Shown here piece by piece: positions 42,771 to 62,231 of a DNA stretch of 64,000 bases. A program made the translations under genes and the position numbers. How positions within the stretch are numbered: position 1 is the first letter of the stretch; each line of letters starts with the position of its first letter. The stretch lies in NCBI GenBank assembly GCA_017412605.1, contig JAFPWY010000003.1:124001-188000 (forward strand), given 5' to 3'. Source of the stretch: Fibrobacter sp. (GTDB lineage: Bacteria; Fibrobacterota; Fibrobacteria; Fibrobacterales; Fibrobacteraceae). The notes beneath the pieces were generated by a model. It worked only from the letters and a program-made list of their open reading frames with translations. It did no database searches and had not been told where the DNA came from.

Positions 42771-43220
42771 TTAGTACTGTTCCAGCTGGGTGTCGAACTT
42801 GTACTTGTCCTTGTAGTAGGCAAGCATTTCGCCGACGTTCTTGAAGCCTCCGTTGCGGGCGGCCTGGCGGATTTCGGGGTCGGAACGCAGCATCTTGCGG
42901 AGTTCGGCGTCGATATCCTTGAAGAAGAGGTCGTTGCTGGCCATCGCGACGTGGTTCTGGTTGTAGTCGAGGTGGTAGCGGCGTTCAAGCGTCTGGAAGA
43001 GTTCCGACTGGCAGGCGTTCTCGGGCGGCTTGCGGTTGGCAACCGGCAGGTAGCACTTCTCGATATAGGCTTGCTTCATCTCGACGATCATCTGGTCGAT
43101 GGCGGGGATGTTGTGGTCGGAGTCGTGATTGGCAACTTCAACGGTGGGTTTTTGGACGGAGCCGCAGCCCATGAGGATTGTTGCGGCGATGGCGAGTGTT
43201 GCCAGGATGCTTAATTTCAT
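42771..43220 (-). CDS. Lipoprotein, 149 residues
   Basis: Starts MKLSILATLAIAATILMGCG (lipobox MGC). I use the ATG at 43220, with AAGG eight bases upstream, rather than TTG at 43226. The mature region is helical and charged, with two cysteines (IEKCYLPVANRKPPENACQS). Family unknown. Monocistronic with its own terminator. Confidence 0.78.
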   Translation of the reverse strand: MKLSILATLAIAATILMGCGSVQKPTVEVANHDSDHNIPAIDQMIVEMKQAYIEKCYLPVANRKPPENACQSELFQTLERRYHLDYNQNHVAMASNDLFFKDIDAELRKMLRSDPEIRQAARNGGFKNVGEMLAYYKDKYKFDTQLEQY

Positions 43221-43367
43221 TTTCAATACCTTTTTGACTTTTTAACCTTTCTATCAATCCCACATTCAAAGTTATTTAAAGTACGGGGAAAAAACGATAG
43301 TTGAATTGTAAAATAAACGCAATAAAAGGCCTGAAAACGTGTCAAAAATCTGTTATTTACTGTGTTT

Positions 43368-43416
43368 GTGATAGGGCTCACGGAGCGTAGCTTTTTAGGG
43401 GCGTGACGCCTATCAC
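43368..43416. repeat. Long interrupted inverted repeat at the end of the M23 gene
   Basis: GTGATAGG-gc-TCACG faces CGTGA-cg-CCTATCAC (13 of 15 paired) around a 19-base loop. The right arm contains the M23 stop. It may act as a terminator without T-run, or belong to the dispersed repeats. Confidence 0.5.
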
Positions 43417-44930
43417 GGAGGGGTCGGTTTGAACATGTAAAACCACTTCATCGGGTCGATTACTTTGTACTTAACGCCGCCGATGGTCTTGTCTCCGTTC
43501 TTTGAAATTAGGCCTGTCACAATGTGCGCGTGAGGCCCTGTCGTGCGGCCCGTGACGCCGATTGTGGCGATGGGATCGCCGGGCATGACTTCTTGCCCGT
43601 CAAGGTAAAGCAACTGGTCGCAGTGCATAAAGAGAATGACATCTTTCTCGCGGACAAGCGCAATGATAATTCCCCCGTTCTTGTCGCGGCTAGTCCACGC
43701 CTTTGCCGAGAAGGGGGCGAGGATGCGCGCGCCCTTCTTGCTGGCTAGGTCGATGCCGTGGTGAAGCCTTTGGTTCTGCGTGGCTTCCCTGTGATAAAAT
43801 TCGGTCAGGTAGGCGATGCTGTCGGAGACGATGGATGTCCAGTACTTCCAGGCGGCACCGATGGAGTCCGCAGCTTCGCGCCCCAGGTTGTCGGGCCTGG
43901 AGAACTTGATGACCGTGCCTTCCGGCGGGATGTTGAAATTTTCGACGCGCCACGAGTTGGTGGGGTAGTTGTTTTCTTCGAGAGTCGTTTCAACGTACTG
44001 CTGCACCATCTTTTCTGTAGTGATGATGGCGTTGAAGCGGCCTATGGCGTAGCGCCCGATGCGTTGCAGGGTTTCCTTTCCGTCGAACGTGAATTCGAAA
44101 GACGGTGCGACGGATAGTGCGTTGCGTTCCTGTATTCGGTTGCGCTCGTTTGAAATGGACGCCGTGACCTTGGTGACCTTCGCAAACGGGAGCATGAACG
44201 CGAGCAGGAAGAACAGGGGGAACAGCATCAGGAAAATCTTGGGGATGCCGTCAATCGGGTTCTTCTTCAGAATACCCATCTTGTGGAGGTTGCCCACGAC
44301 ATGCGTGTATGCTTCCGGGTTCTCCTTGAAGCGCTTTCCCTTGAATCCCTTGAGTTTGAAAGGACTTTTCTTTACGGCTTTCGCTACGCTTGGATGCTTC
44401 TTCTTGTCCGGCTTTTCCGGCACGTCCCAGAGGATAGTGCACTTCCCGACATTCTTTGCGTCGGCGAGGTAACTCGATGCCGTTGCCGCACTGTTTGCAG
44501 ATAAAATAAGCAGTCGGCTTATAGTGAGAACTCTGTCGCAGCCGCCGTTGATTTCGTCTGTGGGAAGGACCGCGATGACGTGCGGAATCTTCTGCTTAAT
44601 TTGTTCTATATTGTGGAAGAAATTCCTGAACGAATTCTCGTCTTCGGGAACGTGGCCGATTTTTGGCGTGATGTGGCCGCATCCTTCGTCTACCTGCGTA
44701 AGCGCGTCGATTCCTTTTTCCCCAATCGGCTTTGCGAAAAGGTCGTCCGTAGAAACTGGGGCGGATCCGTGATATTTGCACGAAAGGTCGACAACTAAAA
44801 AACGCGCGCCAGCGTTAAGCGCTAGCGCGAATTTCTGCAAGGCTTCGAAATCGATCTCTTTTTCGCCCGGATAGGCGACCAGAGTCAATCCGCCTTGATT
44901 ATACAGGTAGTCTAGGACTTTCCTTTGCAT
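43413..44930 (-). CDS. M23-family peptidase with cytoplasmic N-terminal domain
   Basis: A 505-residue protein. The N-terminal 220 residues are a soluble domain of unknown family (GGLTLVAYPGEKEIDFEALQ, VVDLSCKYHG). One transmembrane helix (about 228-250, FLMLFPLFFLLAFMLPFA) follows. The C-terminus is an M23 (LytM) domain with QRLHHGIDLASKKGARILAP (HxxxD) and TTGPHAHIVTG (HxH), the zinc ligands. So the peptidase domain faces the periplasm and may cut or bind peptidoglycan, with a cytoplasmic sensor or partner-binding part. Three bases separate it from the gene upstream. Confidence 0.85.
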   Translation of the reverse strand: MQRKVLDYLYNQGGLTLVAYPGEKEIDFEALQKFALALNAGARFLVVDLSCKYHGSAPVSTDDLFAKPIGEKGIDALTQVDEGCGHITPKIGHVPEDENSFRNFFHNIEQIKQKIPHVIAVLPTDEINGGCDRVLTISRLLILSANSAATASSYLADAKNVGKCTILWDVPEKPDKKKHPSVAKAVKKSPFKLKGFKGKRFKENPEAYTHVVGNLHKMGILKKNPIDGIPKIFLMLFPLFFLLAFMLPFAKVTKVTASISNERNRIQERNALSVAPSFEFTFDGKETLQRIGRYAIGRFNAIITTEKMVQQYVETTLEENNYPTNSWRVENFNIPPEGTVIKFSRPDNLGREAADSIGAAWKYWTSIVSDSIAYLTEFYHREATQNQRLHHGIDLASKKGARILAPFSAKAWTSRDKNGGIIIALVREKDVILFMHCDQLLYLDGQEVMPGDPIATIGVTGRTTGPHAHIVTGLISKNGDKTIGGVKYKVIDPMKWFYMFKPTPP

Positions 44931-44933
44931 AAA

Positions 44934-45344
44934 TTAGGCTTTTGCGGAGCCCTTGGGGTAGGTGACGCCGGAAGGCGGGGCCTTCACGAAGTTGTCCACC
45001 TGCATGTAGAGGTCTTCGGGGGAAGCTGTCGGGTTGAAGTAGATTTCCTGGTTGCGGTTCATGCTACGGCCCTTGAGCGGTTCCTGGCGGCGCGGGCGAG
45101 AAACGACGCCCAGCGGGAGCACTTCGAGCAGCGGGAGCAGGCCGAAATAGCGGAACAGGCTGAAATTCTTCTGCCAAGTCTGGCGTTCGGCCAGGATGGC
45201 GAATGTGCCTTCGAAGATTGTCCTGGACTGGAGCAGTTCATCGGAGGTCATGGTGACCAGTTCGTGGTTGGTGGGGAAGTTGTTTACGAAGTTGACGAGG
45301 TCGCCCTTGAGGTAGTTGGCGTCGCACAGAAATACGAATTTCAT
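44934..45344 (-). CDS. Hypothetical protein cotranscribed with the M23 peptidase
   Basis: A 136-residue protein, starting MKFVFLCDANYLKGDLVNFV, without signal peptide. It looks like a small alpha/beta domain with a proline-rich basic middle. Family not recognised. It ends three bases before the M23 gene, so it may interact with that protein's cytoplasmic domain. Confidence 0.72.
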   Translation of the reverse strand: MKFVFLCDANYLKGDLVNFVNNFPTNHELVTMTSDELLQSRTIFEGTFAILAERQTWQKNFSLFRYFGLLPLLEVLPLGVVSRPRRQEPLKGRSMNRNQEIYFNPTASPEDLYMQVDNFVKAPPSGVTYPKGSAKA

Positions 45345-45778: not shown

Positions 45779-48700
45779 ATGAATCGAATGAAGTCTATGG
45801 CCGCGTTGCTTGCCTCCGCTGGCGTCTTGGCATCTTTTGTTATTGCTCAAGATGGAAAAGGTGGCGCTGCTGCAGTTGAAAATAATGCTCCTTCCGTGAA
45901 CGGCATTCCTGGCGAATCCATTCAGGAGGGCGGAAAGTTTGCTACGATCAAGTTGGATAAATATGTATCTGACGACATGGACAAGCCCGAACAGATCAAG
46001 TGGGCTGTCTCTGGAAACAAGAAACTCAAGGTTTCTATTAAGGACAGAGTCGTAACAATCGAAACACCGGACAAGTACTGGAACGGCTCGGAAGACCTGA
46101 CTTTCGCCGCGACTGACACCAAGGGTGCGGTCGGCTCCGAAACGGTGAACTTCACTGTCGAGTCCGTGAACAATCCGCCTACGGTTTCGCAGATTGCAGA
46201 CCAGACCGTGGACGAAGGAAAGCAGTTCTCAAAGATTAACCTCGATAACTTTGTCGCCGACCCCGACCACCCGAAGGACCAGATTCTTTGGGAATTTGAC
46301 ATCCAACCGGTGGGCAAGGATCAAGCTGATGGAGACCTCAATGTCGAAATCGATCCGAAGCGTGTCGCCACGATTGTGATTCCCGACCCGCATTGGTATG
46401 GTACGGCAAAGATCAAGTTTACCGCGACTGACGGCGAATACGCAAGCGACTCCAAGACCGCTACGTTCACCGTGAAGCCGATTAACGACCCGCCCGTCTT
46501 GCAGAAGATTCCGAGCCAGACGATCGAAGAGAAAAACGAATTCGAATCTATCTCCCTGTCCGATTTCGTTAGCGACGTAGATGATGACGTCTCCAAGCTC
46601 AAGTGGTCTATCAGCGGCAACAAGGACCTCAAGTTCGACATTGACAAGTACGGTACCGCGAACATCAAGATTCCGAACGAATTCTGGAACGGCTCCGAAC
46701 AGATTACGTTCACCGTGACCGACCCTGCTGGTGCGTCTGCCAAGACGACGGCGACCTTCACGGTCAAGTCCGTGAACGACGCTCCCGAGTTCATCAAGGA
46801 CGTTCCCGACCAGACGATCGACGAAAAGCAGGACTTCAAGCCGGTTCAACTGGACCAGCTGGTCAAGGATCCGGACCATGCTTTCGAACAACTTAAATGG
46901 ACAATTTCTGGCAACAAGGACCTGAAGGTTGCCCTGAACGGCAAGACCGCTACTATCGGTGTTCCGAGCAAGCTCTGGAACGGCTCCGAGACGCTTAAGT
47001 TCAAGGTTTGCGACCCGGCCGGTGCCTGCGCTGAATCTGAAGCTCCGTTCACAGTGAACTCCGTGAACGACAAGCCGGAATTCGTGAAGGCCATCCCGAA
47101 CCAGAACATCGACGAAAAGAAGCAGTTTGCAAAAATCAAGCTTGACGAATACGTGAAGGATGCCGACCACAAGCATTCCGAACTCTCCTGGGATGCCGAC
47201 GTGAAGCACCAGGGCAAGATGCCGGAATCCGGCACGCTCAACGTGAGCATCGACGAAAGCCGCGTTGCTACCGTTGAAATTCCGGACACCTACTGGAATG
47301 GCGCTGCTGTTGTTATGTTCACCTGCACTGACCCGGAAGGCGCTGCTGTGAAGCAGGAAGTCACCTTCACGGTGAAGTCCATCAACGATATCCCGGTGTT
47401 CAAGAAGATTCCGGACCAGGCCATCGAAGAAAAGAGCGAATTCTCTTCTATTATTCTTGACGAATACGTGAACGATGCCGACCACGACCTCTCCAAGCTG
47501 AAGTTCGATGTCTCCGGCAACAAAGACATTAAGGTCAACGTGAACCAGAAGACCCGCGAAGTGACGTTCAAGACTCCGAGCGAACTCTGGAACGGCGCTG
47601 AAACGGTGACGATTACTGCAACCGACCCGGAAGGCGGCAAGGCTTCCTCTGCATTCAAGCTCTCCGTGAAGTCCATCAACGACCCGCCGGTCATGAAGGA
47701 TATTCCGGAACAGTCCATCAAGGAAAAGGGCCAGTTCAAGCCCGTCGAACTCGACAAGTATGTTGATGACCTCGACCACGGTAAGGACAAACTCAAGTGG
47801 ACGATTACTGGCCAGCGTGAACTGAAGGTTTCTATCGACGCCAACCGCATCATGAAGGTGACCCCGCCGAGCCCGCAGTGGAACGGCTCCGAAACGCTCG
47901 TTATCAAGGTGACCGACCCGGATGGTGCAACGGACGAACGCTCTGTGGCCTTCTCCGTTGAATCCGTGAACGACGTTCCGGAATTCCTGAAGCAGGTGGC
48001 CGCACAGACCATCAAGGAAAAGGAACAGTTCCAGGTCATCAAGCTTGGTGAAATGGTGAAGGACGCCGACAACAAGCTGAGCGACCTCAACTTCGCCGTC
48101 AGCGTGCATCCGGCTCCGAGCGGAAAGAACAAGGGTGGCGACCTCACTGTCGAAATCGACGCTCAGCATGTTGCCAAGATTGTTATTCCGAACAAGCTCT
48201 GGAATGGTGCCAACGAAATTTCGTTCACCGTGACCGACCCGGAAGGCGCCAAGGCTACGTCCAAGGCCCTGTTCACCGTGACATCCGTGAACGATGTGCC
48301 GGTTCTTAAGAAGATTCCGGACCAGATGATTAGTGAAAAGATGCAGTTCACCGATATCAAGCTCGCTGAACTCGTCTCCGATCCCGACCACAGCATCTCC
48401 CAGTTGAAGTGGACGATTTCTGGTAACAAGGACTTGAAGGTCGACATCAACAAGGATGGTGTTGCCAGCGTCAAGATTCCGAGCCAGATGTGGAACGGTT
48501 CCGAAAAGATTTCCTTCGTCGTGACCGACCCGGAAGGCGCTTCTGCCAAGTCTGAAGCCGTGTTCACCGTGAAGTCCATCAACGACCCGCCGATCATGAA
48601 GGACATCCCGAGCCAGAAGATCAAGGAAAAGGAACAGTTCAAGACGATCGCCCTGGACGACTTCGTCAGCGACCTCGACCACGACAAGGCTCAGCTCAAG

Positions 48701-51700
48701 TGGACCTTCAGCGGCCAGAAGGACCTGAAGATTTCCATGGACGCAAAGCACGTTGTTACGATTGCTACTCCGAACAGGTTCTGGCACGGCACCGAGACGG
48801 TGAAGTTCACCGTGACCGACCCGGAAGGTGCTACCGACAGCCGCTCTGTGACCTTCACTGCTGAATCCGTGAACGACCTCCCGGTCTTCACCAAGCCCAT
48901 CAAGGACCAGAGCATTCAGGAAAAGCGCGAATTTGCTATCATCAACCTGGGCGACATCGTGACTGACCCGGATCACAAGCCGGAACAGCTTTCCTGGACG
49001 TTCAAGGTTGACGGTGCCAAGGGTGCCCCGAAGGGTTACACTCCGAAGCTCACCGTCAAGGTGGACGACAAGCGCATGGCCCGCATTGTTATTCCGGACA
49101 AGTACTGGAACGGCTCTGAACAGATTACGTTCACCGTTGTTGACCCGGATGGCGGCAAGGCCAGCTGCGTTGCCACGTTCACTGTGACATCCGTGAACGA
49201 TGCTCCGACCATCGGCAAGATCAACGACCAGGCTGTCGAAGAAAAGCAGGAATTTGCTCCGATCGACCTTGCTGCAATCATCAAGGATCCGGATCACTCC
49301 TACGACAAGTTGAAGATTGAAGTGACTGGCAACAAGGAACTGAAGGTCGACATCAGCAAGGAAGGCAAGGCGACTGTCAAGGCTCCGAACAAGATGTGGA
49401 ACGGTTCCGAGAAGCTCACGTTCACCGTGACCGACCCGGAAGGCGCCAAGGCCTCTACGTTTGCAACCTTCTCCGTGAAGTCCATCAACGACCCGCCGGT
49501 CATGAAGGAAATTGCTAGCCAGACCATCAAGGAAAAGGGCCAGTTCAAGCCCATCGAGCTCGACAACTTTGTCGACGACCTCGATCACCCGAAGAACAAG
49601 CTCAAGTGGAAGATCGAAGGTGCCAAGGAACTCAAGGTTGCCATGGATGCTAGCCACAAGGTGACTGTGACCCAGCCGAACCAGTTCTGGCACGGTTCCG
49701 AAAAGATCAAGTTCACCGTGACTGACCCGGAAGGCGCTTCCGACAGCAAGACTGTTACCTTCACGGTTGAATCTGTGAACGACGCTCCTGTGTTCGTGAA
49801 GGAACTTAAGGGCCAGTCCATCGACGAAAAGAGGCAGTTCCAGACCATCCGCCTGGATGACCTCATCAATGATCCGGACCATGCCAAGAACGATCTCAAG
49901 TGGTACTTCGACGTGAAGTCCGTCAAGGCTGCTCCTGCCGCTCCGGCCAAGAAGGGTGGCAAGAACGAACCGGCCGCTGCTCCGGCTACGACCAACGGAC
50001 TCTCTGTGAAGGTTGACGCCCAGCATGTCGCTACCATCGTCATCCCGAACAAGTATTGGAATGGCGCCGCGGACATCACGTTCACGGCCAAGGACCCGGA
50101 AGGCGCTGCAGTTTCCAAGACGGCTCGCTTCGAAGTCCGCTCCATCAACGACCCGCCGAAGATTTCTGATAAGGCTCCGAAGGGTGAAACCATCCGTGAA
50201 AACGGCCGCTTCACGACTATCGACCTTTCCAACCTCGCTACCGACCCGGATCACCCGGCTTCGAGCCTCAAGTGGACCTTCACCGGCAACAAGTTCCTGA
50301 AGGTGAACCACCGCAAGGACAACACGGTTGAAGTGGCCCTCCCGGATCCGCAGTGGAACGGCAAGGAAATGATCACCTTCACCGTGACCGACCCGGAAGG
50401 CGCTTCTGCTAACCACAAGATGACCTTCGAAGTCACGCGCGTCAACGACGCCCCGAACTTCGTCAAGAGAATTCCGGACCAGAAGATCAAGGAAGGCAAC
50501 AAGTTCAAGCCTATCCAGCTCGACGAATTCGTGAAGGACCCGGATAACAAGCCGAACGAACTCAAGTGGAAGGTTTCTGGCTCCCAGAAGCTCAAGGCTG
50601 AAATTTCCGGCGGCCGCGTGCTCACGGTCTCCGCTCCGGATCCGCACTTCTGGTGCGCTCCTGAAATGCTCGTGATCGAAGCTACCGACCCGGAAGGTGC
50701 TTCTACCTCCGCTACGGTGACCTTCGAAATCACCTCCGTGAACGATGCTCCGGTGCTCAAGGACATCCCGAACCAGAAGATCAGGGAGAAGGGCGAATTC
50801 AAGGAAATCGACCTGAACAAGTTTGTCCACGACCCGGATCACCAGAACCACGAACTCAAGTGGAGCGTGAAGGTGACCAAGGTCGGCGCTCCCGAGAAGA
50901 AGCCTGCTCCGAAGAAGCCCGCTCCGAAGAAGCCGGCCAAGAAGGGTGCTAAGGCTGACGAAAAGACTGAAGCTAAGGAAGAAGCAGCTCCGGAACCGAA
51001 GCATGACGACCTCGAAGTCGAAATCGACAGCAGGAACATCGCTCATGTCAAGCTCCCGTCCAAGTTCTGGAACGGCGAACGCAACGTCATCTTCACGGTC
51101 GAAGACCCTGAAGGTGCCAAGGCTAGCAAGACTGTCAACTTCCTCGTGGAATCTGTGAACGACGCTCCTGAAATGAAGGTCATCAAGACTCAGACCATCA
51201 ACGAGAAGGAAAAGTTCAAGCCGATCGACCTGAACGGCATCGCCAGCGACCCGGATCATCCGGTCAAGAGCCTCAAGTTCGAAGTCAACGCTACTCGCCA
51301 GCTCAAGGCTTCTATCGACAAGCTGAACCAGTTGTGGGTGGCTACTCCGGACAAGTTCTGGAGCGGTTCCGAAAAGATTACGCTTACTGTCCGTGACCCG
51401 GAAGGCGCCAAGGCGACCCAGCAGATTCTCTTCGAAGTCCTGCCGGTCAACGACCCGCCGATCGTGAAGTCGATTCCTGGCCAGAGAGTCAAGGAAAAGG
51501 AAAAGTTCGAACCGATCGACCTTTCCAAGGCTGCTACCGACCCGGACAACAAGCCGAACGAACTCAAGTGGAGTGTTACCGGCAACAAGGATTTGAAGGT
51601 GGACATCAGGGGTACCCGCGCTATGGTGCTGACCCCGACCCCGAACTGGAACGGCAAGGAAACCCTGACCTTCACGGTTAAGGATCCGTCCGGTGCTAGC

Positions 51701-53110
51701 GCATCTACCAATGCGACCTTCGAAGTGATTGCCGTGAACGATCCTCCGATGATGAAGCCGATCCAGCCGTTCATTATCGAAGAAAAGAAGACCTTCGCTC
51801 CGGTCGACTTCTCGAAGCTCGTTACCGATCCGGATAACGCTCCTGAAGAACTGACCTGGTCTCTCGATGATGCAAGGCCGATGCCGATCAAGACGAAGAA
51901 GGGCATTACCATGAAGATGGGCCGTCCCTCTGTGAAGCACGAAATCAACTTCAACATCGACGAAAAGGGTACTCTCACTGCTGAAATCCCGAACAAGTAC
52001 TGGAACGGTACCGAAGTCGTCACGGTCAACGTGTTCGACCCGGCCGGCGCCAAGGCCTCCATCGATGTCAAGTTCGTTGTCAAGCCGGTGAACGATCCTC
52101 CGACCGTCAAGGAAATTCCTGGCCAGGAAACGCTCGAAGGCAAGGGCTTCAAGCCCATCAAGCTCGACGAGTTCGTGACCGACCCGGATAACAAGGTCCA
52201 TGAAATTCGCTGGAAGGTCTCCGGTGCCAAGAACCTCGACGTGATGATTTCTGGCGGCCGCGAAGCCGTAATCAGGCCGAAGAAGCAGGATTGGTTCGGC
52301 GAAGAAACGCTCGTGTTCACTGCCACCGACCCGGCTGGCGCAAGCGACAAGACCGTTGCCAAGTTCGTCGTCAAGCACGTGAACTCCGCTCCTGTCATGC
52401 GCGACATTCCTGACTTCACCATCAAGGAAGACGACCGTCAGGGCGTTATCGCGGTCATCAAGCTCGACCAGTATGCCCGCGACAAGGACAACCGCTTCGA
52501 AGAACTCAAGTGGACCTTCACCGGCAACAAGTACCTGCAGGTGAAGCACGACAAGTTCAAGAAGACTGTGACCATTTCTCAGCCGCACGAGAACTGGAAT
52601 GGCAAGCCGGAACGCATCACCTTCACAGTGACCGACCCGGAAGGCGCCAAGGCTAGCAGGGCTGCTCTGTTTACGGTGATTGCCGTGAACGACCCGCCGG
52701 TTGCTGTCCCGCACACCTACATGACCCAGGAAGGCGAAGAACTCTCTGTTCCGGCTTCTGAAGGCCTGATGTCCGGTGTCAACGATCCGGATGGCGAAAA
52801 GCCGGTTGCCGTGGCTGTCGTCCAGAAGCCGCGCAACGGTAAGATCTCTCTGAACGAGAAGGATGGTTCCTTCACCTACATGCCGAATAAGGGCTTCAGC
52901 GGCCTTGACGAATTCACGTTCAAGGTTCGTGACCCGGGTGGTGCGTTCTCCAAGATTGAAACTGCCGAAGTCAACGTCAGCTTCAAGATGAAGGACCTCC
53001 GCGGCGGCGAAAAGAAGAAGGAAGCTCCGAAGGCTGAAGAACCGGCCAAGGACAAGGACGACGAAAACGCCGACCAGCCCAAGAAGAAAAAGAGAAAGAA
53101 AAGATCCTAA
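45779..53110 (+). CDS. Giant secreted protein of 23 tandem Ig/cadherin-like domains
   Basis: A 2443-residue protein with a signal peptide (MNRMKSMAALLASAGVLASF), then 23 domains of about 100 residues. Each starts VND/IND-xP-P and has IxEKxxF, a VxDPDH-type calcium-like acidic segment, LKWxxSGNKDLKV, WNGSE and FTVTDPEGA. Domains 2, 5, 8, 11, 14, 17 and 20 carry an extra loop, giving seven three-domain super-repeats. Domain 23 differs and is closest to standard cadherin-like repeats (NGKISLNEKDGSFTYMPNKG). The end is a lysine-rich tail ending KKKKRKKRS. Likely a long cell-surface filament or envelope-spanning adhesin. No sorting domain is recognised. Confidence 0.92.
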   Translation: MNRMKSMAALLASAGVLASFVIAQDGKGGAAAVENNAPSVNGIPGESIQEGGKFATIKLDKYVSDDMDKPEQIKWAVSGNKKLKVSIKDRVVTIETPDKYWNGSEDLTFAATDTKGAVGSETVNFTVESVNNPPTVSQIADQTVDEGKQFSKINLDNFVADPDHPKDQILWEFDIQPVGKDQADGDLNVEIDPKRVATIVIPDPHWYGTAKIKFTATDGEYASDSKTATFTVKPINDPPVLQKIPSQTIEEKNEFESISLSDFVSDVDDDVSKLKWSISGNKDLKFDIDKYGTANIKIPNEFWNGSEQITFTVTDPAGASAKTTATFTVKSVNDAPEFIKDVPDQTIDEKQDFKPVQLDQLVKDPDHAFEQLKWTISGNKDLKVALNGKTATIGVPSKLWNGSETLKFKVCDPAGACAESEAPFTVNSVNDKPEFVKAIPNQNIDEKKQFAKIKLDEYVKDADHKHSELSWDADVKHQGKMPESGTLNVSIDESRVATVEIPDTYWNGAAVVMFTCTDPEGAAVKQEVTFTVKSINDIPVFKKIPDQAIEEKSEFSSIILDEYVNDADHDLSKLKFDVSGNKDIKVNVNQKTREVTFKTPSELWNGAETVTITATDPEGGKASSAFKLSVKSINDPPVMKDIPEQSIKEKGQFKPVELDKYVDDLDHGKDKLKWTITGQRELKVSIDANRIMKVTPPSPQWNGSETLVIKVTDPDGATDERSVAFSVESVNDVPEFLKQVAAQTIKEKEQFQVIKLGEMVKDADNKLSDLNFAVSVHPAPSGKNKGGDLTVEIDAQHVAKIVIPNKLWNGANEISFTVTDPEGAKATSKALFTVTSVNDVPVLKKIPDQMISEKMQFTDIKLAELVSDPDHSISQLKWTISGNKDLKVDINKDGVASVKIPSQMWNGSEKISFVVTDPEGASAKSEAVFTVKSINDPPIMKDIPSQKIKEKEQFKTIALDDFVSDLDHDKAQLKWTFSGQKDLKISMDAKHVVTIATPNRFWHGTETVKFTVTDPEGATDSRSVTFTAESVNDLPVFTKPIKDQSIQEKREFAIINLGDIVTDPDHKPEQLSWTFKVDGAKGAPKGYTPKLTVKVDDKRMARIVIPDKYWNGSEQITFTVVDPDGGKASCVATFTVTSVNDAPTIGKINDQAVEEKQEFAPIDLAAIIKDPDHSYDKLKIEVTGNKELKVDISKEGKATVKAPNKMWNGSEKLTFTVTDPEGAKASTFATFSVKSINDPPVMKEIASQTIKEKGQFKPIELDNFVDDLDHPKNKLKWKIEGAKELKVAMDASHKVTVTQPNQFWHGSEKIKFTVTDPEGASDSKTVTFTVESVNDAPVFVKELKGQSIDEKRQFQTIRLDDLINDPDHAKNDLKWYFDVKSVKAAPAAPAKKGGKNEPAAAPATTNGLSVKVDAQHVATIVIPNKYWNGAADITFTAKDPEGAAVSKTARFEVRSINDPPKISDKAPKGETIRENGRFTTIDLSNLATDPDHPASSLKWTFTGNKFLKVNHRKDNTVEVALPDPQWNGKEMITFTVTDPEGASANHKMTFEVTRVNDAPNFVKRIPDQKIKEGNKFKPIQLDEFVKDPDNKPNELKWKVSGSQKLKAEISGGRVLTVSAPDPHFWCAPEMLVIEATDPEGASTSATVTFEITSVNDAPVLKDIPNQKIREKGEFKEIDLNKFVHDPDHQNHELKWSVKVTKVGAPEKKPAPKKPAPKKPAKKGAKADEKTEAKEEAAPEPKHDDLEVEIDSRNIAHVKLPSKFWNGERNVIFTVEDPEGAKASKTVNFLVESVNDAPEMKVIKTQTINEKEKFKPIDLNGIASDPDHPVKSLKFEVNATRQLKASIDKLNQLWVATPDKFWSGSEKITLTVRDPEGAKATQQILFEVLPVNDPPIVKSIPGQRVKEKEKFEPIDLSKAATDPDNKPNELKWSVTGNKDLKVDIRGTRAMVLTPTPNWNGKETLTFTVKDPSGASASTNATFEVIAVNDPPMMKPIQPFIIEEKKTFAPVDFSKLVTDPDNAPEELTWSLDDARPMPIKTKKGITMKMGRPSVKHEINFNIDEKGTLTAEIPNKYWNGTEVVTVNVFDPAGAKASIDVKFVVKPVNDPPTVKEIPGQETLEGKGFKPIKLDEFVTDPDNKVHEIRWKVSGAKNLDVMISGGREAVIRPKKQDWFGEETLVFTATDPAGASDKTVAKFVVKHVNSAPVMRDIPDFTIKEDDRQGVIAVIKLDQYARDKDNRFEELKWTFTGNKYLQVKHDKFKKTVTISQPHENWNGKPERITFTVTDPEGAKASRAALFTVIAVNDPPVAVPHTYMTQEGEELSVPASEGLMSGVNDPDGEKPVAVAVVQKPRNGKISLNEKDGSFTYMPNKGFSGLDEFTFKVRDPGGAFSKIETAEVNVSFKMKDLRGGEKKKEAPKAEEPAKDKDDENADQPKKKKRKKRS
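46166..52684 (+). repeat. Seven three-domain super-repeats (about 900-1000 bp each)
   Basis: Super-repeats begin near 46166, 47062, 47965, 48870, 49778, 50740 and 51735. In each, the first domain has the extra loop and the second and third do not. Loops in the fifth and sixth units are long and Ala/Lys/Pro-rich. Confidence 0.85.
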
Positions 53111-54851: not shown

Positions 54852-54900
54852 TTAGTTAATTGATGATTGATGATGGATGATTGATGATTAATTGTTGTTA
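54852..54900 (+). repeat. 7-bp array (ATTGATG), seven units
   Basis: TTAGTTA, ATTGATG, ATTGATG, ATGGATG, ATTGATG, ATTAATT, GTTGTTA. It starts next to the ABC-F start codon and covers the stop of the four-helix-bundle gene. Confidence 0.8.
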
Positions 54901-55253
54901 GGAAGAATTTTTGATGTTTTGATTATTTTCGTAATAATCTTGATAATAGATTCATTTTCCGCGTAAATTTCTTTGAATAGGTTTTCTTTAAGGAATGATG
55001 TTTCCTTAAGTAATTCTAGCCAATATTCTGTTTCTGAAGCTTCCTTTAAGGCTATGGACATTTTCGAAATGAAATCGGCTTTACTCTGTGCTTGTGTTGC
55101 TTCTTTTACATTTGCACCGATACTTGTTCCGCTTCTAAGAACTTGCTTGGATAGAACGTACTCTTTTCTCTCATTGGACAAATAAAGATAAAGATAGATA
55201 ATTTGGATGGCGAAGGCTTTTGTTTTTTCGGCAATTAAATTGTCTTTCTTCAT
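54888..55253 (-). CDS. Four-helix-bundle protein (23S rRNA intervening-sequence protein family)
   Basis: A 121-residue helical protein of the family found in 23S rRNA intervening sequences and elsewhere in genomes. The signature is VLRSGTSIGANVKEATQAQS followed by DFISKMSIALKEASETEYWL. Function is not established. AT-rich, bracketed by 7-bp arrays on both sides, and not inside an rRNA gene here. Confidence 0.9.
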   Translation of the reverse strand: MKKDNLIAEKTKAFAIQIIYLYLYLSNERKEYVLSKQVLRSGTSIGANVKEATQAQSKADFISKMSIALKEASETEYWLELLKETSFLKENLFKEIYAENESIIKIITKIIKTSKILPNNN

Positions 55254-59903: not shown

Positions 59904-62231
59904 ATGCGTAATTTTTTGCCTCTATTTTTCATCATTCCTGTAGCCTGTTTTGCGACGGGCGGAACCATGGCCGGAATTGGGACTCGGACCAATCCCTGGC
60001 AGGTCGCCGACTACGAAGACCTTAAAATGGTGGGTGAGTCCCCCTACACGATGGACGGGCATTATCGCCTTGTCGCAGATATCGATGCCAGCGCCTCGAA
60101 AACGGAAGTTTTCCCGGGTATTGAAGCTTCTTCGGCGAGTGGATTCAAGCCGATTGGGCAGAAATTGGTTGTAAAGTCGGATTCTTCGATCGTTGTCGAT
60201 ACGATTGCGTCGAACGTCGGTTTCTCGGGCTTGTTTAACGGTGCGGGGCACGTCATCAGCAACCTGCATATCGTGAATTTTGCCGTGCCTTCGACAGGTT
60301 TCTTCTTTAAGATCGATTCCTTGGCAAATTTGGATAGCTTGACGCTCAAAAATTATTATTTCAAGGGAATCTATTCCGGTGGCATTGCGGGAGTAAACCA
60401 TGGGACAATCAATGGTGTCCATATCGATGCTGATACGCTTGATTTTGTGCATGCTGCAGGCGGCATCGTGAGCGAAAACCACGGTACGATTACGAATAGC
60501 AGCTTTTCCGGAATGATTCTTGGCGGTTATTTGGGCGGTATAGCCTACGATAATAGCGGAACCATTTCCAATTGTGAGGCGGTTCTCAAGAATGGGAGCA
60601 CCGAACGGGAGGCGGCGATGTTTGGCGGCATCTCGTACAACAACACGGGAACTATCAGGAATAGCAAGACTTCTGGCACAATTCGCGGTTCAACGAATAT
60701 CGGCGGTATCGCGTCCATCAACTACGGGACAGTGGAACGTTGTTCGTCGTCCGTGGACATCTATGGCGCTGGCGGCTCGGACAATTTTGGCATCAATGTT
60801 AAAAGTGTGGCTGCCCTGGGTGGCCTTGTGGCCGTGGATAGCGGCAAAATCCACAACTCCCATGCCAGCGGGAACGTGACGGCGACGGCGAGCAATGCCG
60901 GCGGGCTCGCAGGTATCACTTTTGGCGAAGTTATCGGGTGTACGGCTTCGGGAGAGGTAAAGACGCTCGCCTATAGCGGTTCCTTTGTCGGAACGAATCG
61001 CGGAAAGATCGATAGCAGTTCCGCTACGGGAAAAATTGTCGGTTCCGCCTATCTGGGCGGCTTTGCCGGCCAAAATCTCGGTGAAATCCGTAATTCCTAC
61101 GCTACGGGGAGTGTCGATGCCACCGCTTCGACTGCTGGTGGCTTTGTCGCCAAGAACGACACTTCGGGAATTGTTGAAAAAAGCTATTCCACGGGCAACG
61201 TGAACTGCTATGTGAACACGGGCGGATTTGCCGGTGAAAATATGGGAAAGATTTCCCAGTCGCATTCCCTCGGCCATGTTCAGGGGGCCTCGAATATCGG
61301 CGGGTTTATCGGCAAGCAGGATGGCGGTTCTACGGAACTGTCGTACTCGACGGGCCTTGTCCTGGGCGAGATTTCCGTGGGCGGTTTTGCCGGCGGCGTC
61401 AAGAATTCCTCCATTGACCAGTGCTATTCAACAGGTGACGTGCTGGAAGGCCATATCCAGGTATCCGGATTTGTTTCGTCCGTCACGAATTCCTCTGTGA
61501 CCAATTCGTTCTCGACCGGTAACGTGTACTCGTCGGATGACGTTTTCGAGAATGTGGGCTCCTTTGTCGCAGTCGCCGACTCCGCTTCTACGATAAAGAA
61601 CAGTTTCTCCATGGGGGCGGTATCGAACTCTGTCTTGCATGTAGACAAGATTTGCGCCACGAGCATGGTGGAAGGCGTTGAAGGGTACTACTGGAACATT
61701 TCCAACTGCACCGTCGTCGATAGTGCCAATTACGGAATCGGCCTGACGAGCGAACAGATGAAATCCAGCGAAAGCTTCGACAAGTTCAATTTTGAAAAGC
61801 AGTGGGCGTTCGAATCGGGAGCAAGTTTCCCGACGCTAAAGAATGTCGCTTTCGACACGACCATGAAGGATTCTGCGGGATTCTTCGGGAGCGAAATCGA
61901 GCGATATGTTCCCCCGAGCGAGAAAGATCCCGGCAAGACCGACATAAAGCAGGCTCCGGTGACAAAGGCTCGGCTGGCGGTGTCGTTCTCTTGCCGCTAC
62001 ACGCACGGAAGCGTCGAGATGAACTTTGCCTTGCCTCGTTCGGGCAAGGTGGATGTCCGCATCTTCGATTTCCAGGGCCGCGAAGTGGGTGCCGTTCCTG
62101 GGCGCGAATACGCCTCGGGCCGTGGCGATATGCGCTGGGATGCGTCGGGCCTCTCGAAGGGCCGTTACCTGGCCGTATTGCGGGTAGATGGCAAAATGGT
62201 TGCGAAGAGTGGCTTCGTGAAAGTGCGGTAA
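59904..62231 (+). CDS. Secreted GLUG-repeat protein with C-terminal sorting-type domain
   Basis: A 775-residue exported protein (signal peptide to about residue 18). Residues 120-590 are GLUG-type repeats, seen as GGIAGxNxGTIxxxxxxG units (GGIAGVNHGTINGVHIDADT, GGLAGITFGEVIGCTASGEV, GGFAGQNLGEIRNSYATGSV). The last 85 residues form an Ig-like end (GKVDVRIFDFQGREVGAVPG, DMRWDASGLSKGRYLAVLRV, ending FVKVR), resembling type IX secretion C-terminal domains. Likely a surface protein. The start is not marked by a good ribosome-binding site. Confidence 0.85.
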   Translation: MRNFLPLFFIIPVACFATGGTMAGIGTRTNPWQVADYEDLKMVGESPYTMDGHYRLVADIDASASKTEVFPGIEASSASGFKPIGQKLVVKSDSSIVVDTIASNVGFSGLFNGAGHVISNLHIVNFAVPSTGFFFKIDSLANLDSLTLKNYYFKGIYSGGIAGVNHGTINGVHIDADTLDFVHAAGGIVSENHGTITNSSFSGMILGGYLGGIAYDNSGTISNCEAVLKNGSTEREAAMFGGISYNNTGTIRNSKTSGTIRGSTNIGGIASINYGTVERCSSSVDIYGAGGSDNFGINVKSVAALGGLVAVDSGKIHNSHASGNVTATASNAGGLAGITFGEVIGCTASGEVKTLAYSGSFVGTNRGKIDSSSATGKIVGSAYLGGFAGQNLGEIRNSYATGSVDATASTAGGFVAKNDTSGIVEKSYSTGNVNCYVNTGGFAGENMGKISQSHSLGHVQGASNIGGFIGKQDGGSTELSYSTGLVLGEISVGGFAGGVKNSSIDQCYSTGDVLEGHIQVSGFVSSVTNSSVTNSFSTGNVYSSDDVFENVGSFVAVADSASTIKNSFSMGAVSNSVLHVDKICATSMVEGVEGYYWNISNCTVVDSANYGIGLTSEQMKSSESFDKFNFEKQWAFESGASFPTLKNVAFDTTMKDSAGFFGSEIERYVPPSEKDPGKTDIKQAPVTKARLAVSFSCRYTHGSVEMNFALPRSGKVDVRIFDFQGREVGAVPGREYASGRGDMRWDASGLSKGRYLAVLRVDGKMVAKSGFVKVR

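Follow-up and report, generated by a model that had tools for sequence, protein, structure and literature searches.

Fibrobacter is a main fibre degrader of the rumen and its envelope is poorly understood. Giant Ig-like bacterial proteins are usually taken as stalks with a flexible number of domains. In the window, by which we mean the whole 64,000-nucleotide stretch of Fibrobacter DNA analysed here, one gene encodes a giant protein of tandem Ig-like domains for which a preliminary description reported an extra loop in every third domain. The locus raises the question of whether this rhythm is real and conserved, and what a bacterial cell might use it for.

Architecture and three-domain register of the giant protein

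The reading frame of the giant gene proved to be intact, with the coordinates and length first reported for it exact, and its product of about 270 kDa is laid out as a signal peptide, 23 cadherin/Ig-like (Big_9, tandem-95) domains and a disordered lysine-rich tail (Table 1). Segmentation bore out the count of 23 tandem domains, whose spacings from d1 to d22 are 96, 105, 97, 97, 106, 98, 97, 107, 97, 97, 108, 97, 97, 123, 99, 99, 139, 97, 96, 118, 97 and 102 residues. The segment running from the LKW to the WNG motif measures 25–27 residues in each of the 16 non-loop domains, and 34, 34, 35, 36, 51, 68 and 47 residues in d2, d5, d8, d11, d14, d17 and d20, respectively, so that the extra loop sits, as had been claimed, in exactly these domains and nowhere else. 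For 7 long domains placed randomly among 21, such an exact period-three register has a probability of about 2.6e-5. The enlarged Ala/Lys/Pro loops reported for d14 and d17 are likewise real (the 51- and 68-residue segments); the loop of d20, on which the preliminary description was silent, is enlarged too, and d22 owes its 102 residues to an insert near IKEDDRQGV rather than at the loop site.

Table 1. Features of the giant gene and of its surroundings, in window positions
Feature	Position	Strand	Remarks
Divergent upstream neighbours: 136-aa protein, M23 peptidase, small lipoprotein	42771..45344	-	order kept within Fibrobacteraceae
M23 peptidase	43413-44930	-	long cytoplasmic-looking N-terminal region, one membrane segment; syntenic in Fibrobacteraceae
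136-aa protein	44934-45344	-	strongly conserved, 64-87% identity in family
Whole ORF, 2443 aa	45779..53110	+	269.8 kDa; mature protein pI 5.55
Sec-type signal peptide (MNRMKSMAALLASAGVLASFVIA) and short linker	45779..45880	+	by sequence reading; no lipobox Cys; putative cleavage site
Domain 1, cap	45881..46165	+	ordinary length
Unit 1: d2 (loop), d3, d4	46166..47062	+	
Antisense ORF, 2161 aa	46229-52714	-	codon register with the giant gene
Loop segment d2	46292..46336	+	15 aa (7 in ordinary domains)
Unit 2: d5 (loop), d6, d7	47063..47965	+	
Loop segment d5	47192..47236	+	15 aa
Unit 3: d8 (loop), d9, d10	47966..48868	+	
Loop segment d8	48095..48142	+	16 aa; modelled as coil joining two strands
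d9-d11	48287..49192	+	without counterpart in 20-domain orthologs
Unit 4: d11 (loop), d12, d13	48869..49774	+	
Loop segment d11	48998..49048	+	17 aa
Unit 5: d14 (enlarged Ala/Lys/Pro loop), d15, d16	49775..50737	+	
Loop segment d14	49904..49999	+	32 aa, Ala/Lys/Pro
Unit 6: d17 (largest loop, Lys/Ala/Pro), d18, d19	50738..51733	+	
Loop segment d17	50864..51010	+	49 aa, PAPKKPAPKKPAKK
Unit 7: d20 (enlarged basic loop), d21, d22	51734..52681	+	
Loop segment d20	51860..51943	+	28 aa, basic
Domain 23, distinct C-terminal cadherin-like cap	52685..52978	+	best match to Big_9 and to Cadherin_5
Lysine-rich disordered tail, aa 2409-2443	53003..53107	+	pLDDT <50 throughout

With the loop columns removed, identity between domains is 49.2% at offset 3 against 42.9% at offset 1 and 42.4% at offset 2, and domains of the same class share 45.6% identity versus 42.1% for those of different classes, a value that none of 20000 label shuffles reached. 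Six of 97 columns separate the three domain classes at p<=0.01, and nearly all of these lie inside the loop hairpin, few outside it. We also built a tree of 64 domains taken from the window protein, one 20-domain ortholog and one sister-family ortholog, on which the class label changes 5 times for the loop class and 10 times for each of the other two, against a shuffled mean of 17. Since the sequences are short, 26 of the 61 branches are open and ortholog pairs contribute part of the clustering, the anticipated period-three grouping is supported but not clean. The tree sets d23 clearly apart as a separate type, whereas d1 is only moderately distinct, so that the picture of two distinct flanking domains holds in full for the C-terminal one. 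For the intervening d2–d22, the offset-3 peak, the register kept in complete orthologs and one unit-sized deletion uphold the view that they are seven copies of a three-domain unit repeated in register, that is, a higher-order super-repeat. The basic C-terminal tail noted earlier is real as well, and a basic cluster ends it in all full orthologs.

The gene avoids TTA, CTA and TCA codons (1 observed versus about 12.8 expected), which is in keeping with good expression; measured against the genes of the window, its codon bias is no stronger than that of housekeeping neighbours such as ABC-F or leuC, and a ribosomal L2 gene was not found in this assembly. The sister-family orthologs L057 and L058 show extreme codon bias (ENC about 26.5). 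Because the same three codons are avoided, a long antisense ORF runs opposite the giant gene. We rejected it as a real gene, as it is shattered in the orthologs L103 (106 stops) and L114 (104 stops), and conclude from the sequences that it is a by-product.

Conservation of rhythm and domain number

The giant gene is single-copy in nearly all Fibrobacter genomes searched, where the named relatives with 93–94% identity are Fibrobacter MAGs, and it is also present in other genera of Fibrobacteraceae. Two genomes of the sister family (L057 and L058) carry an ortholog of about 46% identity, while none was found in four genomes of the sister-family genus g19 or in any further family of the class or phylum that was searched. 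Using an HMM of the domain, we segmented 54 complete ortholog rows representing 52 distinct loci, the window's included, as G060/UBA7003 and G087/Mx356 are duplicates of the same contig. Of the distinct loci, 43 have 23 domains and 9 have 20 domains. In every one of the 52 the loop recurs at domains 2, 5, 8, 11 and so on, and it is never lost; the shortest loop segment, 30 residues in d11 of four genomes of genus g16, still exceeds that of any ordinary domain in Fibrobacteraceae. The loops of units 1–4 are near-constant in size across orthologs, and the Lys/Ala/Pro-rich loop segments of units 5–7 vary in length from 42 to 68 residues. That no loop would be found out of register held for nearly all loci, but not for the sister family, where the loop site of d21 bears an insert in both genomes (32–33 versus 25–27 residues, that is, 5–7 extra) and that of d10 in one (a segment of 30 residues, about 4 extra).

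Counterparts of d9–d11 of the window protein are missing from the 20-domain orthologs. These make up a single monophyletic group within Fibrobacter (support 1.0), and lineages with 23 domains surround it in the tree, which is most simply explained by one loss event: this clade lost exactly one three-domain unit, in register. As the loss of any three consecutive domains keeps the phase, the informative point is that the sole change in domain number that we found is of size three; one deletion event only was seen, and for placing a recombination junction inside d9/d12 the diagnostic columns are too few. Since the rhythm is kept in all complete copies examined, also after the loss of one block, rhythm and length probably matter for the proposed job of the protein as a rod in the cell envelope.

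Predicted fold, charge polarity and surroundings

The giant protein scores 617.6 bits with the NCBIfam tandem-95 model NF012211 (cut-off 90) and 553.7 bits in 19 stretches with Pfam Big_9 PF17963 (cut-off 23.6), and thus belongs to both families; together with Cadherin_5 (PF17892), these describe the same domain family with its length near 95–100 residues and its tandem layout. Other tandem-95 proteins that we segmented (G038 C16 and G106 C486), unlike the giant protein, have no regular long/short pattern. An AlphaFold2 model of d8–d11 made from 35 sequences reached a pLDDT of 91.5 but a pTM of 0.51, so that the single domains are sure and their mutual arrangement is not; in it, the d8 loop is a coil linking the two strands of a hairpin. 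Foldseek matched the four-domain model to cadherins at E about 1e-18 and VIA-align at Z about 13–14; the two put it in the company of cadherins, protocadherins and the RTX extender AhLap, and the predicted fold, tandem beta-sandwiches with acidic/Asn residues at the linkers, is cadherin-like. Across 1215 domains the acidic/Asn columns N2 (99.8%), E17 (98.8%), D32 (100%), D34 (96%) and D81 (100%) are near-invariant, a set which we take to fit the cadherin Ca2+ ligand pattern and which suggests that Ca2+ is bound at the linkers. Classical cadherins and protocadherins share the fold and this type of ligand residues with the giant protein, which differs from them in its 23 domains with periodic loops, in having no membrane anchor that we could see, and in an identity of 12–18% only.

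Among the matches listed, the whole-chain superposition of lowest rmsd was that on AhLap (6XI1; 6.1 Å over 365 residues); the absence of MhLap (6XI3) from the VIA-align matches listed has no bearing on how similar it is. In the parts of the published account that concern them, RTX extender rods are described as linear beta-sandwich rods with repeat rotation, stiffened by linker Ca2+, with a repeat pitch of i+2 for AhLap, i+3 for MhLap and i+4 for MpIBP (PMC7493085). Given this spread, and a pitch of i+2 for the rod of lowest rmsd, a rotation of about 120 degrees between neighbouring domains, by which the preliminary description would have lined up all loops along one face, is possible but not indicated by analogy, and the loops may not all face one way. 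The giant protein resembles the RTX rods (AhLap 6XI1, MhLap 6XI3, MpIBP and SiiE) as a predicted linear array of beta-sandwiches with putative linker Ca2+, and differs from them in its fixed domain number, in having no RTX or type I secretion parts, and in its three-domain super-repeat, of which none is described for RTX rods in those parts of PMC7493085.

A charge polarity along the chain was overlooked in the preliminary description. The mean net charge per domain rises from -5.4 in d1 and -7.8 in d2 to between -1.4 and +2.8 in d14–d22 (Spearman 0.91 over the means of d1–d22, 0.87 without inserts). The trend is positive in each of the 23-domain orthologs (median 0.79, minimum 0.42), and a rise of this kind is missing from nine other large proteins of the phylum, taken in 100-residue bins (rho between -0.67 and 0.26). 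All orthologs examined also show an ordering of loop charge (mean rho 0.87) and of loop length (mean rho 0.86) from the N- to the C-terminus.

The gene stands isolated between oppositely oriented neighbours. The divergent genes upstream, which were not found beside the giant gene in the sister family, faintly hint at envelope work. The 136-aa protein among them matched no Pfam or NCBIfam family, and we rejected its assignment as bactofilin-type on this ground. Elsewhere in the window we observed a 775-aa protein with GLUG motifs (59904-62231, + strand) and a 23S rRNA-intervening-sequence protein (54888-55253, - strand) whose gene is flanked by those for an ABC-F protein and a BcrAD/DUF2229 activase.

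Candidate roles of the super-repeat

The period of three could be a fossil of gene growth by duplication of three-domain blocks, in which case the loop would have no function of its own: a surface hairpin tolerated the insertion, and duplication carried it along. Trimer duplication accounts for the register without selection; here and there, domains of one class group together across neighbouring units (7/10/13 and 8/11), and the long loops consist of low-complexity sequence whose length varies. We nevertheless hold this explanation to be improbable: in about 355 distinct loop positions from two families, with identities down to about 46%, we counted 0 losses; the loops of units 5–7 change length readily yet persist, those of units 1–4 hold near one length, and the ordering of loop charge and length along the chain recurs in every ortholog examined.

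Equally doubtful, in our estimate, is the role of a stalk in a surface adhesin like those of the RTX or Bap type: the domains would keep an adhesive tip at a distance from the cell, and the loops or d23 would be binding sites for plant fibre or for anionic polymers of plants. Fibrobacter is a bacterium that adheres to plant fibre, adhesins commonly contain tandem-95/Big_9 domains, the RTX adhesin extender is the nearest solved four-domain rod by rmsd among the matches listed, and basic loops could bind pectin-like polymers. However, Pfam and NCBIfam scans of the giant protein (E<=0.01) gave no match to an RTX family, and no carbohydrate-binding or other ligand domain was found in such scans. 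RTX adhesins carry C-terminal RTX nonapeptides and a T1SS signal and have no cleaved Sec signal, whereas the giant protein, with its Sec-type N-terminus and Lys-rich C-terminus, does not fall among them. Nor does it appear to be a T9SS substrate, as no C-terminal sorting domain (TIGR04183 type) was matched in NCBIfam at E<=0.01 and the last 35 residues are predicted to be disordered, with no sorting-domain fold in the C-terminal model. Adhesin stalks usually vary in domain number, which is fixed here. Finally, a cadherin-domain envelope protein of cellulose-grown F. succinogenes, FSU_2932, has a mass of 317.9 kDa and a pI of 4.69 (PMC4619616); we rejected its identity with the giant protein because of the latter's mass and mature pI. 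Another giant protein of the same genome (L116:2046-10805; 2920-aa frame, 318.5 kDa, pI 4.83) fits FSU_2932, which is therefore not evidence for the 2443-aa protein.

We tentatively prefer, at somewhat under even chances, an envelope rod of fixed length that is stiffened by Ca2+, has a contact loop projecting sideways from every third domain and ends in a basic C-terminal anchor. Our reasons are that domain number, order and rhythm stay fixed in both families, that we found neither an adhesive nor a secretion domain, and that the loops are never lost although their length changes readily. After export by the Sec route, the 23 domains of the protein would form a very elongated rod with stiffening Ca2+ at its linkers; if each domain adds about 4.4 nm (our estimate), its length would be roughly 100 nm. 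In the cell envelope of Fibrobacter such a rod would be a structural part, either a spacer or a scaffold. Each unit would expose the loop of its first domain laterally as a contact site, placing such sites about 13 nm apart and regularly spaced toward a partner filament in the manner of titin super-repeats; as the loop sequences of units 5–7 are poorly conserved, a specific docking site is not evident, and the scarcity of class-specific columns outside the loop hairpin also speaks against this reading. The passage from short acidic N-terminal loops to long Lys/Ala/Pro-rich C-terminal loops and the lysine tail would give the rod an electrostatic polarity. With its basic end, the rod would probably hold on to an anionic polymer of the envelope or to the acidic half of the rod next to it.

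In titin, A-band super-repeats of 11 domains in the C-zone, about 43 nm long, are thought to act as a length ruler and to offer binding sites at regular intervals (PMC10665226). Titin is likewise a fixed-order higher-order repeat of Ig-type domains (PMC10665226), and no homology is evident beyond an Ig-like fold; the giant protein is bacterial and exported, and its three-domain unit is marked by an inserted loop. The domains, their fold and tandem layout are already known, as are Ig super-repeats from titin (PMC10665226); what is new, as far as the open-licence literature shows, is a bacterial protein that combines a charge gradient with a loop-marked three-domain super-repeat of conserved copy number. 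In that literature we found nothing relevant on a bacterial three-domain super-repeat.

A further reading, which we rate as quite unlikely, is that of an envelope ruler of fixed length, in which the loops of every third domain are attachment sites on one face at one spacing and the graded charge makes the rod polar. Rods would then either align with an anionic polymer of the envelope or pair in a staggered way, the acidic half of one against the basic half of the next. If it were true, the 20-domain clade would be a natural experiment with a rod one period shorter. 

A fixed domain number, order and loop rhythm, together with the clean loss of a unit, are features to be expected of a part whose length is critical and whose contacts are periodic, and the 23- and 20-domain forms allow a direct test of the ruler.
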